NCBI GenBank assembly: GCA_900107185.1
Contig: FNPA01000010.1
Coordinates: 1-64,000 of the forward strand
From: Ruminococcaceae bacterium YAD3003
Lineage (GTDB): Bacteria > Bacillota > Clostridia > Saccharofermentanales > Saccharofermentanaceae
DNA: 64,000 nt
Direction of reading: 5' to 3'
Position 1 is the first letter of the stretch. Each line of letters starts with the position of its first letter. Below the pieces are notes generated by a model, which was not told where the DNA came from, made no database searches, and saw only the letters and a program-made list of their open reading frames with translations. Positions 15,145-62,952 of this stretch are shown here, piece after piece. A program made the position numbers and the translations under genes.

Positions 15145-15242
15145 TCGTAATCTTTCGTTTTCATAACGTATATCTCATCGTTGAAGAATGCTATTATGGC
15201 GGTCTTCCCTTCAAGCTTCTTAGCAATTGTGCCTATCCCACA
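15141..15242 (-). pseudogene. Out-of-frame 3' piece of the gene at 15220
   Basis: Beyond the stop of the 176-aa gene, another frame stays open for about 33 codons and reads like protein (KKLEGKTAIIAFFNDEIYVM..., stop at 15141-15143). It has no start of its own. A one-base indel near 15235 would join it to the upstream gene. Confidence 0.4.
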
Positions 15243-15750
15243 CCTGAACTTCAACATAAGCATACTTACCGAGAGACTCTTTGAGAAAAGCGTCAACTGA
15301 GCCATTGCATGCCCCGATACGCTCAAACAGCATTTTCTTCGTCAGAACAACAGGTTCATTTCCATGAATCATCAGAGCACAGCTGTCTCCTATCGTGAAG
15401 CTGACCTGATCGTCCGGGACATCATCCAGATCGATAATGATCTTATCGCTGCTGTCAAACCATTCTCTGAGATATTCGCACTCCAGGAGTGTAAACGAAT
15501 AGGGGTGCGGGAGCTTCGGCTTACCGCCTAACTGTATAAACTTCTCACGAACAAATTGATCTGCTTTCTTTCGCGCGGGATAATAATTCTCAAAGTCAGC
15601 GAAACGGCCGAAACTGGTAGTATCCGGATGAGCTTTCGCGAGTTCCTCAGCCTTGCGAAATGCATCCTCCTCAGGAAGGAGCATTATATTTTTCCACGGG
15701 TCTGTCCCCGGATAAAAGTAGTGCGTAATAAACAGCTTATCCATATTCAT
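15220..15750 (-). CDS. Hypothetical protein, 176 aa, possibly frameshifted at its 3' end
   Basis: Not assigned to a family. Soluble, with no signal peptide; 'HPDTTSFGRFADFENYYPAR' and 'FTIGDSCALMIHG' segments look well structured. The frame ends at a TAA after VEVQVWDRHNC, while the next frame continues with about 33 coding-like residues to 15141. It may therefore have lost its natural C-terminus through an indel; alternatively the ending is genuine. Confidence 0.6.
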   Translation of the reverse strand: MNMDKLFITHYFYPGTDPWKNIMLLPEEDAFRKAEELAKAHPDTTSFGRFADFENYYPARKKADQFVREKFIQLGGKPKLPHPYSFTLLECEYLREWFDSSDKIIIDLDDVPDDQVSFTIGDSCALMIHGNEPVVLTKKMLFERIGACNGSVDAFLKESLGKYAYVEVQVWDRHNC

Positions 15751-15843
15751 TTCCGGTCTCTATTACTGATGATTTACAACATTAATTATACTATTCCCGG
15801 GATTTAGCAAAACCTAAAGTCTAAATCCAGCCGTGTATTTTTT

Positions 15844-15933
15844 GTGTAGTAAATCATTTCGAAAACTCACAAAAAACTACATTTATGAACAAACGTGCAA
15901 AATACGTGCATGTTTTGGCCGTTGGCACTACAC
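15844..15933 (+). repeat. 90-bp GTGTAGT...ACTACAC element, copy A
   Basis: Exactly 90 bp, starting GTGTAGTAAAT and ending ACTACAC (7-bp terminal inverted repeat), with an internal AAAAAACTACA. A second 90-bp element with the same ends lies in reverse orientation at 61587-61676. T-rich sequence flanks both. Non-coding. Confidence 0.6.
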
Positions 15934-15980
15934 TTTTTTCGCACACGCCTAAATCGACCTGACTCTAACCCTCCCCGCAA

Positions 15981-16067: not shown

Positions 16068-17294
16068 ATGAGAACAAAGAGCCTGATCGCAGTATTGCTT
16101 TCATTGTGCCTTCTTGTTTCCTGCACTAAATTTGACTATGACAAACTCCGTTCAAGAGACGGCATAATGATGTATATCGGTTCGACAAGTTATGAGCTGA
16201 TGTATGCAGGCTCAAATAACTGTACCGGCATAGGATATGAAATTGATTGGGACGGCAACATCACCAGATATGTCGGTTACCAGATCACTGAGACTCTTTA
16301 CGATTACGCAGTCCTGAGCGAAAAAGACTACAAGACGCTCTATGAGTTTGCTGAACACAGCCGCAAGACCGATCCCTTTAAAAATTATTCTGAAAGAGTA
16401 TATGACGGTTGGGTCTGGGACTTCGAGTATTATTTCGATGAAGGAGAAGACCCATTTACTATCTACCACGGTTATTGCTATCAGCAGAAAGAATTACAGG
16501 AGATCCTTGATCTGCTGAAGTCTTATTTCCCCAGTATAGAATACATTCCGGCTCCTACCGTAGAGCCGGATAATACTGAAGAGCCGGATAACACTTCAGA
16601 AACTATTGAAGAAACAGTTATTGATCAATTGACACCTCTAGGCTATGTCTCAGTTGATCAATTCAAGAGCTATTACGGTCTGGATGGCATAAACGATGAC
16701 AGTTATATAGAAGACTTCATCCTCTTCCAACAGATAACAGAAGAGCAAATGTTTGAATACGATTACGGCAAAGAACTGACTGATTCTATCGCGAATGGGG
16801 ATTACAGTCTGTTCGGCTATAACATGAACTGGAATGTACTTAACTATCAGGAGATAGAAATAGAATCGAGAGATGCTATCGCTGAAGCTACAGGAAATGC
16901 CAGATGGATCTACATGGTCTTTGAGGTCCCTATACCTGACAGCGATGAGACCCAAAGAGTAACCATGCTCTCTGATCTTTACCATGACAAGTATTATTAT
17001 GACGTTGATGAAAATAACTATAGAAATTCCAGAAAAAGAACTAATCTGACTGAACTGGCAAGAGAAATACAGGTGGAAATGATCCCGGAAGATGCCGAGA
17101 GACAGAATCCTGACCGTGATAAATATGCTCTGTCTTACGAATATGATGTATACATTTTCTCTTACGACAGAGAGTATATCCATATCTCAAACGACAGCAC
17201 CTACCGTTTTCACCAGTCATTTGATATCTACTGGAAGCTGGTATATTACAGGATCTTCTGCACCGAATTTGAGGTAAGTTCTAGCGGTACATAA
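16068..17294 (+). CDS. Lipoprotein, function unknown
   Basis: 408 aa from the ATG at 16068, which has GGAGGG seven bases upstream; an earlier in-frame ATG at 15981 lies inside the promoter and is rejected. The signal peptide MRTKSLIAVLLSLCLLVSC has a lipobox LVSC, so it is attached to the outer face of the membrane. A Glu/Asp/Thr-rich linker (about residues 165-190) separates two soluble halves. No catalytic motif recognised. Confidence 0.7.
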   Translation: MRTKSLIAVLLSLCLLVSCTKFDYDKLRSRDGIMMYIGSTSYELMYAGSNNCTGIGYEIDWDGNITRYVGYQITETLYDYAVLSEKDYKTLYEFAEHSRKTDPFKNYSERVYDGWVWDFEYYFDEGEDPFTIYHGYCYQQKELQEILDLLKSYFPSIEYIPAPTVEPDNTEEPDNTSETIEETVIDQLTPLGYVSVDQFKSYYGLDGINDDSYIEDFILFQQITEEQMFEYDYGKELTDSIANGDYSLFGYNMNWNVLNYQEIEIESRDAIAEATGNARWIYMVFEVPIPDSDETQRVTMLSDLYHDKYYYDVDENNYRNSRKRTNLTELAREIQVEMIPEDAERQNPDRDKYALSYEYDVYIFSYDREYIHISNDSTYRFHQSFDIYWKLVYYRIFCTEFEVSSSGT

Positions 17295-60106: not shown

Positions 60107-61477
60107 TTATATCTTCTCCGGTTCCTCTTTGACTTTGTCCTTAGGAAGTTTAGCAAAGAAAACGACCGTAAACGGTATGCACACAACAGATGTCATGACA
60201 TCCGCAACCGCCTGCGCGATCTGTATTCCCTTAAGACCCCACAGGAAACTGAATATCAGCAGTATCGGAATGAAGATCAAGCCATTTCGAAGTGACGATA
60301 AGAATGTCGCATTGAATTTGTATCCGATACTCTGGAAAGTCATGTTATTGCACACCTGGAAAGGCACCGTGAAGAGCGCAATGCACTGCGCGTGCAGAGC
60401 AGGAATGCCGATCATGACAACCGCCGGATCATCTCTGAAAAACTGTATGCAGTCGCCGGCATGGAAATATACGATCGTAGATGCGATGCCCAATAGCAAC
60501 GTGCCGAATCCGAGCGTGAAGAAAAATCCCTGCTTCAGACGCGAATATTTCTTGGCACCAAAGTTAAATCCTGCAACAGGCTGGAATCCCTGACCTATAC
60601 CGAGTACAGCACTGAAGATCAGCATGCTAACTCTGTTGACGATTGCCATGGCAGCGATCGCTGTATCGTCGTAAGGCTTTGCAGCGTTGTTAAGAAGCAT
60701 CGTGGAGATGCTCGCCAGACCCTGTCTTGCAAGGCTCGGAAGGCCCGTCGTAATTATGTCTCCTAATGTTGCCACATCGAATTTGGCATGCTTAAACGCC
60801 AGTGACGTCTGTGTGTTTTTGAGAATGAACATCAGGAGGAGCAACGCCCATGAGATGTACTGTGAGATTGCGGTCGCGAGACCCGCACCAAATATTCCCA
60901 TGTTCATCTTCTGCATGAAAAGCGCATCCAGGAATATGTTTAGTATGCCTCCCGATGTAAGGCCGATCATGGCAAAGAACGCACGGCCCTCGTATCTTAA
61001 GATGTTGTTCATTACGCAGCTCGATACCAGCGCCGGCGCCGCAAAGAGAATGCATAAACCGTATGTTCTCGCGTAAGGTAGGATCGTGTCCGTACTGCCG
61101 AGCAAACGCATGAGCGGGTTAATGAACAGTGATCCGAATATCATGAAGAAGAATCCGAAAAACAGCGCCGAATAGAATCCCGTCGCAGCGATCTTTGTGG
61201 CGCTCTCAACGTCCTTCTGGCCGAGCTTTCTTGAGAGGATACTGCCGCTGCCGTGACCGAACATGAAACCTACCGCCTGAAGGATCGCCATCAGCCCCAG
61301 AACGACGCCTGTCGCACCGCTCGCAGACGTGTTTATCTGGCCTACAAAGTAGGAGTCCGCCATATTGTAGATACTGGTGACGAACATGCTTATCATCGTC
61401 GGTATGCCGAGCTGCACGATCAGCGCCGGCACCGGCTTTTGCGTCATCATTTCATACTGTGTCTTATACCTCTTCAT
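60107..61477 (-). CDS. MATE family efflux transporter
   Basis: 456 aa from the ATG at 61477 (GGTGGATCA upstream). Twelve helices; 'IPTMISMFVTSIYNMADSYF' and 'GQGFQPVAGFNFGAKKYSRL' are classical for the DinF/NorM-like Firmicutes branch. Na+ or H+-driven export. Distinct from the MATE protein at 55602. Single gene. Confidence 0.9.
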   Translation of the reverse strand: MKRYKTQYEMMTQKPVPALIVQLGIPTMISMFVTSIYNMADSYFVGQINTSASGATGVVLGLMAILQAVGFMFGHGSGSILSRKLGQKDVESATKIAATGFYSALFFGFFFMIFGSLFINPLMRLLGSTDTILPYARTYGLCILFAAPALVSSCVMNNILRYEGRAFFAMIGLTSGGILNIFLDALFMQKMNMGIFGAGLATAISQYISWALLLLMFILKNTQTSLAFKHAKFDVATLGDIITTGLPSLARQGLASISTMLLNNAAKPYDDTAIAAMAIVNRVSMLIFSAVLGIGQGFQPVAGFNFGAKKYSRLKQGFFFTLGFGTLLLGIASTIVYFHAGDCIQFFRDDPAVVMIGIPALHAQCIALFTVPFQVCNNMTFQSIGYKFNATFLSSLRNGLIFIPILLIFSFLWGLKGIQIAQAVADVMTSVVCIPFTVVFFAKLPKDKVKEEPEKI

Positions 61478-61586
61478 TGATCCACCAAAAAACAATATCT
61501 CTTATAATTTCATTCTTTGGTTTATATTTCAAGGAAATGGGCGGGCCCCCTGCTGATGCAGCGTGTGCCCCCTCTCGAAAGCAAAT

Positions 61587-61676
61587 GTGTAGTTTTTGCC
61601 CCCGTTTTTAGGATAAAACTACACAAAAACGCGATTTTGTATAGTTTTTCGCGATTTTTAAACCCATTTACTACAC
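61587..61676 (-). repeat. 90-bp GTGTAGT...ACTACAC element, copy B
   Basis: Exactly 90 bp, reverse orientation relative to copy A; read on the minus strand it also begins GTGTAGTAAAT and ends ACTACAC, with an internal AAAAACTATACA at the same place as AAAAAACTACA in A. It also has an internal 10-bp inverted repeat, GTGTAGTTTT/AAAACTACAC (61587-61596, 61615-61624). Lies between two minus-strand genes. Confidence 0.6.
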
Positions 61677-61678
61677 AA

Positions 61679-61709
61679 ACAAAAAGGTCCGTTTCTAACA
61701 ACGGACCTT
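61679..61709 (-). terminator. Intrinsic terminator of the zinc-ribbon gene at 61734
   Basis: Minus strand AAGGTCCGTT-GTTAGA-AACGGACCTT then TTTGTTT: a perfect 10-bp stem with 6-nt loop and T-rich tail. Confidence 0.85.
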
Positions 61710-61733: not shown

Positions 61734-62732
61734 TCAGTCAAAACCGAATGAACCCAGGAAAAACAACGCTGTTTTCTTGGCGAACGTTCCGAATGACTTC
61801 GGCCACTGGCCTTCGATCTTACCTGTCTGACCGTTGATAACGATCGTGAAGAGCCTGTTATCGTAGAAGAACGAATTGATCCAGACAGGAACGATGAGAT
61901 ATTTGTATTTCAGGTTGTAGTAATTGGTGTTCATATTGATTCCGAGGAGGACGTGAGTCTTGTCGGTCTTACTAACCATATCCCTGAGATGCCAATTGAG
62001 TTCAGGACCACAGCTGTTCCACGCTTCGCTCAGACCGATCGAATAGTGCTCGCAGGGAAAGCCTGCCATGGCATCAGGTGTATAAGGCTTTGCTTCATTG
62101 GTTCTGTAATCCTTCAGAACCGATAACAGGAGCTTATCTGATGCCAGCTGCTTACTGGCAACAACAGGAAAGTCATCAACCTGGTATTGGAATAATGCAC
62201 TCATATTCTGCCTTCTGTTGTTTTCGACATAATGCGCATTAAGACGGCTGTATGTGAACACATCGAAAGTAAACACAGGAACGTAGATTCCATAGAACTT
62301 ACCTAACTGTGCATTAGCAGCAAGCTTCTCAGGAGCTAAGAATCTGTCCTTGATCCAGTCCTTAAAAATGTAATAAGCTCTCTTCTCAGTGATCTTAAAT
62401 GGAATGATTCCCTGGGGTGCCATTATGTCCTGAGCAGGGTCTGCTGCATCAACAGTTGTTGAACCGCAGAACGGGCACAAACCTGATAACTGGAGTTTAT
62501 TCTGGATCGTTTCCGCACCGCACTGTTTGCATTGGACGATCTTTGCCTCCATACCCCAGTCGTGACTGGCAGTGTTTTGCGCAGTAAGGAAATCCATCTC
62601 TGTAACCGGAGTCTTGGAAACGAGCTCAGGAATAATCTCGTTATGGCCACATGACTGGCATATGAGGCTGTCGAATCCGGGATTGAAGATCAAGGTACCG
62701 CCGCATGACGGACACTTCTTTGTCTGTTCCAT
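61734..62732 (-). CDS. Double zinc-ribbon protein, TFIIB-type
   Basis: 332 aa from the ATG at 62732 with GGGAGGA six bases upstream; the longer frame to 62804 lacks this. Zinc ribbon 1 at residues 8-30 (CPSCGG...CQSCG), ribbon 2 at about 68-90 (CKQCGA...CPFCGS), then a beta-rich soluble domain ('IYVPVFTFDVFTYSRLNA', 'YLIVPVWINSFFYDNRLF'). Possibly one C-terminal hydrophobic stretch. Such proteins are common in Firmicutes; function unknown. Confidence 0.78.
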   Translation of the reverse strand: MEQTKKCPSCGGTLIFNPGFDSLICQSCGHNEIIPELVSKTPVTEMDFLTAQNTASHDWGMEAKIVQCKQCGAETIQNKLQLSGLCPFCGSTTVDAADPAQDIMAPQGIIPFKITEKRAYYIFKDWIKDRFLAPEKLAANAQLGKFYGIYVPVFTFDVFTYSRLNAHYVENNRRQNMSALFQYQVDDFPVVASKQLASDKLLLSVLKDYRTNEAKPYTPDAMAGFPCEHYSIGLSEAWNSCGPELNWHLRDMVSKTDKTHVLLGINMNTNYYNLKYKYLIVPVWINSFFYDNRLFTIVINGQTGKIEGQWPKSFGTFAKKTALFFLGSFGFD

Positions 62733-62952
62733 AGCAAATCCTCCCTTATCCTTATTCTTTTCAATTATAACATCGTTCGTCAGTATGATATTTATTGTTT
62801 TCATTATGTATAAGAGATATGTTTGACAACGAAATGCCTAATGGCTCTGAACGTGCTATAATTACTACATCTTGAGGTTGTTATCTATATTATCGTCACG
62901 TAAAGACGATGTGTGTGCTTCGTATATAAAATCTTGCAAAGGAGTCACCCTT

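Follow-up and report, generated by a model that had tools for sequence, protein, structure and literature searches.

The closest described counterparts of the elements reported here belong to the REPIN/RAYT systems. These systems comprise palindromic doublets that are scattered through extragenic DNA, form hairpins and fall into several families per genome, each family beside its own copy of the gene, and REP-type palindromes are tied to tyrosine transposases, the doublets being thought to be moved by the Y1 transposase (PMC3116915, PMC3733652). The window analysed here, i.e. the first 64,000 nucleotides of contig FNPA01000010.1 of Ruminococcaceae bacterium YAD3003, contains two palindromic elements, A and B. 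We propose, with a probability of roughly 0.6, that they are part of a REPIN/RAYT-like selfish system that uses a different enzyme, a predicted nuclease of ~260 aa, and is probably timed to competence. Small mobile DNA of this kind does not seem to have been described before.

In the initial annotation A and B were recorded as stretches of 90 bp each (15844-15933 and 61587-61676), running from GTGTAGT to ACTACAC in opposite orientation, and this description holds, as does their common end GTGTAGTAAAT, which can be read directly in the sequence. That the resemblance exceeds chance is borne out by the 2.67-Mb genome, in which GTGTAGT-N{55,85}-ACTACAC occurs at six places (12 rows, both strands) vs. 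none for the reversed control; GTGTAGTAAAT alone gave 13 matches vs. 2 for its control, and AAACTACAC alone is not enriched (25 vs. 24). The ends, however, had been set too narrowly, as both elements continue beyond both limits (approximate extents in Table 1). In A the outer block TTTTTTCGCACACG follows box 6 up to 15947 and pairs with GCCGTGTATTTTTT, which begins at 15830. A and B share the architecture but not the subfamily, A being of type I, with GTGTAGT at offsets 0 and 63, ACTACAC at 21, 33 and 84 and outer blocks ~12 bp past each end, and B of type II, with boxes at 0, 31, 52 and 83. We take the equal length of 90 bp to be a property of the common two-hairpin architecture rather than of recent common copying. 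A is intergenic, with a leftward open frame (15220-15750) on one side and a rightward frame (ATG at 16068) on the other, and B sits between two leftward frames, one at 60107-61495 that by eye resembles a multidrug-efflux gene and one at 61734-62804. Elsewhere in the window, the top score of a hairpin scan went to an extended inverted repeat at 1100-1260 (GTTAATTGCAGAATTAAAGTTAG ... CTTCTGCAATTAAC), which by its boxes is not a member of the element family.

Table 1. Positions of elements, boxes, flanking repeats and TTGTCG motifs; positions without prefix refer to the window.
Feature	Position or locus	Strand	Description and basis
Element A, full extent	15830-15947	+	type I (GTGTAGT word) quasi-palindrome, two tandem hairpins; R1 103.8 bits, E 3.2e-20; R3 87.2 bits (A is in the training set of both)
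A box 1, GTGTAGT	15844-15850	+	sequence; alignment A6
A box 2, degenerate, ACTCACA	15865-15871	-	sequence; alignment A6
A box 3, ACTACA	15876-15881	-	sequence
A box 6, ACTACAC	15927-15933	-	sequence; alignment A6
Element B, full extent	61577-61686	-	type II; R2 110.3 bits, E 8.6e-23 (B is one of the three training sequences)
B box, GTGTAGT	61587-61593	+	sequence
B box, ACTACAC	61618-61624	-	sequence
B box, GTATAGT	61639-61645	+	sequence
B box, ACTACAC	61670-61676	-	sequence
Flanking direct repeats	L231		99% over 110 bp
Flanking direct repeats	L250		96% over 117 bp
Flanking direct repeats	L216		93% over 96 bp
Flanking direct repeats	L212		80% over 80 bp
Flanking direct repeats	L003		79% over 113 bp
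Motif at comEC	G000:C11:170018 (L259)		
Motif at recA	G000:C16:2041 (L264)		
Motif at T2SSE-ATPase operon	G000:C11:21027 (L258)		
Motif at short conserved frame	G000:C11:182881 (L260)		
pheT-downstream motif and short frame	L106-L111, L115, L121, L122, L124, L125, L139		

The family to which A and B belong consists of intergenic quasi-palindromes of ~110-120 bp, built of two tandem hairpins with two paired blocks each. Three covariance models were derived from it, R1 from eight type I sequences, R2 from three type II sequences and R3 from 16 elements of the own genome. R1 and R2 each recover their training sequences, and the additional matches of R1 have the same architecture but other words in the boxes (TTGGCGT, TGGGAGT, GTGCAAA). 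Across subfamilies and species the words vary (e.g. GTGTAGT, TTGGCGT, TGGGAGT, GTACAGT, GTGCGTA) while the architecture is constant; by eye, more than 20 words occur on one scaffold, and they differ even among copies within a single genome. In eight GTGTAGT copies (alignment A3) the five boxes are 78-100% identical, whereas identity falls to 42% and 32% in the two spacers of 14 bp. The check for covariation suggested at the outset was made on alignment A6 (16 own-genome elements, 120 columns). Read as a nested palindrome, a structure drawn from the same sequences on which it was scored and thus biased in its favour, A6 has 77.2% of its cells paired (64.2% in shuffles), changes on both sides in 24 of 31 pairs (16.4 in shuffles) and a covariation of 0.306 (0.137 in shuffles), with 0 of 500 shuffles reaching any of the three values; sliding the structure by 1-3 columns lowers the pairing to 27-50%. 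Alternatively, the element can be read as two tandem hairpins, each W1-W2-loop-W2'-W1', which is clearer in sister species. In the paired blocks of A6 (columns 4-8, 10-13, 15-23 and 36-43, our own tally) there are 8 wobble-type vs. 14 A-C cells, and because wobble pairs are not in excess we take the element to be a palindrome at the level of DNA. The same tally, together with the observation that the models recognise numerous elements on both strands, speaks against the structured RNA initially considered.

The family is far larger than the pair A and B. In the own genome R3 matches no fewer than 23 separate places, 16 of which are its training sequences, and beyond this list there are three type II places and two elements beside genes, so that a genome without further copies, raised as a possibility in the initial annotation, is clearly not what we see. 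When contig C13 was scanned at fixed offsets without regard to words, the three top-ranking places were GTGTAGT copies, the rest being background. In the genus, i.e. Saccharofermentans-like rumen Clostridia, R3 matches are found in 24 of 35 genomes at E ≤ 0.1, a number that drops to 17 with a cut-off of E ≤ 0.001, whereas in other genera of the order one of 24 genomes has a match, at E 0.002; the R3 counts over 40 genomes are lower bounds because stricter filters were applied, with 61 candidates scored per genome. Among the 80 pheS relatives retained of 581 confirmed, five named Saccharofermentans are 96-99% and one is 82% identical, and from these names the host is taken to be a Saccharofermentans-like clostridium of the rumen. 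The exact type I pattern is present in 0 of 58 relatives and absent from the genome_contigs collection, and it was the covariance model that subsequently revealed elements whose words differ; sister species have other words, although G018 shares GTGTAGT with the own genome.

Within-genome duplication is evident. In G008 a stretch of 399 bp that includes two elements recurs elsewhere at 98% identity and a 111-bp piece at 94%, and G023 has stretches of 115-148 bp that are 84-93% identical although their surroundings differ. G023 and G027 have one element in common within a 2.1-kb stretch that is 94% identical, the element differing at 8 of 119 positions, so that inheritance or transfer of an element together with its site is possible as well. 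At three loci of G008 (L096, L097 and L098) we observed composite intergenic blocks of ~400 bp, 94-98% identical between loci, which hold two elements of opposite orientation with different words as well as TTTTCGGG-type repeats. Elements adjoin both starts and ends of unrelated genes, and several lie between convergent frames. No clean empty site was seen at pheS, downstream of pheT or along 19 kb of C13, and no target-site duplication around the five element-flanked units described below; since synteny breaks at the elements examined, insertion itself is a step that we infer. The suggestion of a MITE-like family fits insofar as the elements are dispersed, palindromic and apparently non-autonomous and have a candidate cognate gene, but precise ends and target duplications, which are typical of MITEs, were not found.

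The candidate gene encodes a protein of ~260 aa that was first noticed beside elements in four genomes while their neighbours were being read. An R3 element at E ≤ 0.02 is present in 21 of 50 gene loci of 1.9-4.0 kb (14 of 30 picked by tool and 7 of 20 picked by hand from a list of protein matches), never more than 270 bp away from the gene; of these elements, 14 are downstream, many of them within 30 bp of the stop codon, and seven upstream. Without L204 and L205, which repeat L189 and L201, i.e. two of the four loci where the gene was first noticed, the count is 19 of 48; the other two discovery loci, L003 and L119, are outside the 50 loci but inside the sets of 54 and 55 used below, and L245 was fetched when its gene-element adjacency was already known. 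In the control, 39 loci picked via pheS (323 kb), R3 matches two places, of which one, too, adjoins a nuclease gene. The remaining 29 of the 50 gene loci have no R3 match at E ≤ 0.02, although some show hairpins by eye. Independently of the words, a tandem-hairpin scan of 54 genes (omitting L206, a repeat of L087) gave scores ≥ 16 at 14 genes vs. one and none at offsets of 500 and 900 bp, and scores ≥ 14 at 25 genes vs. five and six; a second version of the fixed-offset scan had low power, whereas the tandem-hairpin version worked. R2, run on 27 gene loci, found its training element in L010 and otherwise two weak matches only (E 0.042 and 0.82).

In the own genome each of the five closest homologs has an adjoining element, and three of their words recur among the dispersed copies; as R3 was trained mostly on those words, elements with other words may be missed. 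Among the 23 R3 places listed, 19 have no adjoining copy of the nuclease gene, and 17 of these 19 dispersed elements carry the word GTGTAGT, TTGGCG or TGGGAGT, each of which is also found beside a resident gene (by eye). A distant homolog on C29 adjoins a type II element, i.e. one of the subfamily of B. A third repeat type, GTCAGxCAACACATGTTTTGACGCAC, was observed downstream of the gene in L237, beside a distant nuclease homolog on C11, and recurs with 72.5% identity over 120 bp on the contig of the window, past the end of the window (G000:C13:74603-74718). The similarity of the words of gene-adjacent elements does not correlate overall with protein identity (Mantel p 0.22, n=25), proteins that are 70-76% identical mostly having elements with different words, and in view of this we infer, rather than observe, that the nuclease recognises the word.

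The protein family is present in all 35 genomes of the genus, with one to 12 matches each, and in one of 24 others. In all 51 homologs of an alignment that omits L206 and the short fragments L010, L230 and L238, the residues S145, E148, Y164, D180, E195, G198 and Y205 are invariant. E148, D180 and E195 are candidates for the E...D...(D/E)xK active site of PD-(D/E)XK enzymes, but the lysine of motif III is not at its usual place (E-H-x-G). No Pfam or NCBIfam family scores above cut-off, and no known transposase domain was found. The C-terminal ~110 residues match the nuclease end of the PADLOC model PDC-S68 in 28 of 28 members scanned (best E 5.9e-18), PHROG resolvase/endonuclease families match the C-terminal half, and PDB entries for endonuclease I, presumably that of phage T7, give a weak profile match (E 0.018-0.045) over the RS..E..YE..PDF region. 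The invariant residues and the profile matches to nuclease domains make it likely that the protein is a PD-(D/E)XK nuclease; the single-sequence fold of P0004 is poor (pLDDT 38.5). No relatives were detected among 133 pattern stretches of IMG/VR viral contigs and no homologs on plasmids, and phages gave one weak match that covers 40% of the query (E 4e-3).

In five of 55 loci direct copies of the element stand on both sides of the gene (Table 1), and the unit so flanked spans 1.13-1.33 kb, most of which is the nuclease gene. The count drops L230 and L232, where the gene start is off the contig and the flanks overlap, and L224, where a 52-bp match is inverted; in the other 50 loci no repeat is recognisable on both sides. 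The protein of L231 is only ~25% identical to the query, and with a homolog so diverged the flanked arrangement is probably old.

Upstream of the nuclease gene there are two or three TTGTCG repeats and often a CGACAA, at least two of these hexamers occurring within 130 bp of 44 of the 55 genes, where the background expectation is 0.098 per 130 bp. Many of the genes have a TATAAT-like box that starts ~12 bases before the ATG; in an example promoter (L003, ~2040-2137) the box ends a few bases before the ATG, and with the box so near the start codon the mRNA may be leaderless. The pair TTGTCGN{2,6}TTGTCG occurs at ten distinct places in the own genome. Three of them are nuclease genes, and others lie upstream of a ComEC-family gene (PF03772, 4.6e-26), of recA (PF00154, 1.4e-143) and of a 101-codon frame without Pfam match, and at an operon that includes a T2SSE ATPase (PF00437, 1e-7), here inside the longest reading of the preceding or first frame of the operon; one further place is intergenic and two are inside genes. 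The motif is also found downstream of pheT in 13 of the 34 named relatives with a sufficiently long locus. It precedes a nuclease gene in L119, and in each of the remaining 12 a frame that resembles the one of 101 codons, which begins with MSTLE in 11 and is more diverged in L139. As the raw genome-wide count of the pair does not exceed that of the reversed control (14 vs. 13 rows), the argument for competence rests on which genes follow the motif and on its conservation. On this basis we regard the TTGTCG repeats as a candidate control motif for competence and DNA uptake in the genus; we know of no description of competence regulation in these rumen Clostridia.

Endonuclease I of phage T7, to which the catalytic domain of the protein bears its closest, albeit weak, resemblance, cuts junctions and cruciforms. 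A nuclease of the junction-cutting type, DNA that can form two hairpins and a competence-type promoter together suggest an action on hairpins or cruciforms during transformation, and as the TTGTCG repeats of the nuclease promoter are also those of comEC and recA, such timing is probable. According to the reading that we prefer, the trans-acting partner of the elements would be the PD-(D/E)XK-type nuclease family, encoded in small units of ~1.1-1.3 kb in which the TTGTCG promoter and the nuclease gene, in this order, are enclosed by two elements, the word differing from unit to unit. The nuclease may recognise the folded element, as single-strand hairpins or as a cruciform, by its word and cut there, which would allow the unit or a solo element to be copied into new intergenic sites, and it would act during natural transformation, when single-stranded DNA is in the cell. 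A and B would then be solo copies of non-autonomous palindromic mobile elements, a part of this explanation to which we give the same probability. Whether the system even constitutes a separate class of mobile DNA is more doubtful; tentatively, such a class would be characterised by single-gene units bounded by direct two-hairpin palindromes, with a junction-cutting PD-(D/E)XK nuclease as the sole protein, switched on with competence and acting on the single strands taken up, the words changing while the fold is kept.

As main rival we keep an explanation based on homing or on a cassette, which is unlikely. Here the element would be both target and joining site, and the mobile piece would consist of the nuclease gene and one element: the nuclease cuts a solo element or the incoming folded strand, recombination joins the gene-element piece to give element-gene-element, and recombination between two elements leaves a solo element behind. 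The direct rather than inverted orientation of the flanking repeats (80-117 bp, 79-99% identity, five loci) would be expected, the position of 14 of the 21 adjoining elements just downstream of the gene, many less than 30 bp from the stop, is cassette-like, and the promoter common to nuclease, comEC and recA also suits this scheme; the solo copies at many unlinked sites, however, are not explained by it alone, and their spread needs another route. It is improbable that the elements are multi-box sites for DNA-binding proteins that serve chromosome organisation or regulation, with the ~260-aa protein mainly a DNA-binding regulator, although the near-helical spacing of the boxes (12, 21 and 30-31 bp), the conservation of boxes next to free spacers and the intergenic location would agree with it, since the nuclease-type residues are invariant in 51 of 51 proteins, near-identical copies stand at unrelated places, starts and ends of unrelated genes are adjoined alike, and the words differ across species and even within one genome. 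A role in defence or self/non-self discrimination, in which a competence-time nuclease would cut incoming DNA with or without the word and the elements would be self marks or decoys, seems very improbable: the match of the C-terminal domain to the nuclease end of the defence candidate PDC-S68 and the competence-type promoter are in keeping with it, but by these models there are at most tens of elements per genome, seemingly too few for self marking, and near-identical direct repeats flanking the gene are the mark of a mobile element. Least probable of all is a family of structured RNAs or terminators acting as transcript hairpins, for although predicted transcripts fold with -23 to -53 kcal/mol (energies without shuffle control) and several copies lie between convergent frames, matches on both strands without strand asymmetry, the lack of a wobble excess, the position of A between divergent frames and zero Rfam matches in the window at gathering scores do not favour it.

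If our preferred reading of a selfish nuclease system is correct, a REP-like logic, i.e. a gene with dispersed palindromic satellites, many words and one architecture, would here be combined with an unrelated nuclease-like protein. This would add a new enzyme class to small mobile DNA, offer a natural experiment in the specificity change of structure-recognising proteins and directly link natural transformation to selfish DNA; in addition, the TTGTCG repeats are proposed as a competence promoter motif for a group of rumen Clostridia. Among the top-ranked titles and abstract openings of the open-licence literature, we saw no account of a PD-(D/E)XK nuclease associated with palindromic repeats, nor of repeats in Saccharofermentans.

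In comparison with known systems, the similarity to REPIN/RAYT lies in palindromic elements that are found both beside the gene and dispersed extragenically. The partner protein, however, has PD-(D/E)XK-type residues, and a RAYT system was rejected as a search of the own genome for PF01797 (Y1/HUH) gave nothing at E ≤ 0.001, with 5 of 14 control genomes positive. Without a Y1 transposase the system is not a member of REPIN/RAYT, but it may work like one. Moreover, the elements measure 110-119 bp and have eight blocks and, by eye, no common tag, in contrast to the GTAG-type tag and the 20-40-bp palindrome of the high-copy REPINs; they number tens per genome by these models rather than hundreds, with changing words, and the promoter motif of the nuclease also stands at competence genes. 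Our system resembles MITEs and insertion sequences in having short, non-autonomous-looking intergenic repeats and a larger gene-bearing relative, but here no target duplications were seen, no known transposase domain was found, and the palindromes at the two ends of a unit are direct rather than inverted copies. The element as a whole is quasi-palindromic. An integron cassette consists of one gene and one folded palindromic attC site, whose pairing is kept while its sequence varies. The combination of a gene with a folded palindromic site and the conservation of structure over sequence recur here, yet the protein is nuclease-like and not a tyrosine recombinase, and the elements are scattered singly, no array having been noticed. 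PADLOC PDC-S68 shares the nuclease end, i.e. the C-terminal ~110 residues, but models ~1200 positions, of which this end is the only common part. Finally, the protein resembles T7 endonuclease I in the RS..E..YE..PDF region, albeit by a weak profile match, and differs from it by ~130 additional N-terminal residues, by E-H-x-G as third motif and by being chromosomal, multi-copy and linked to repeats.
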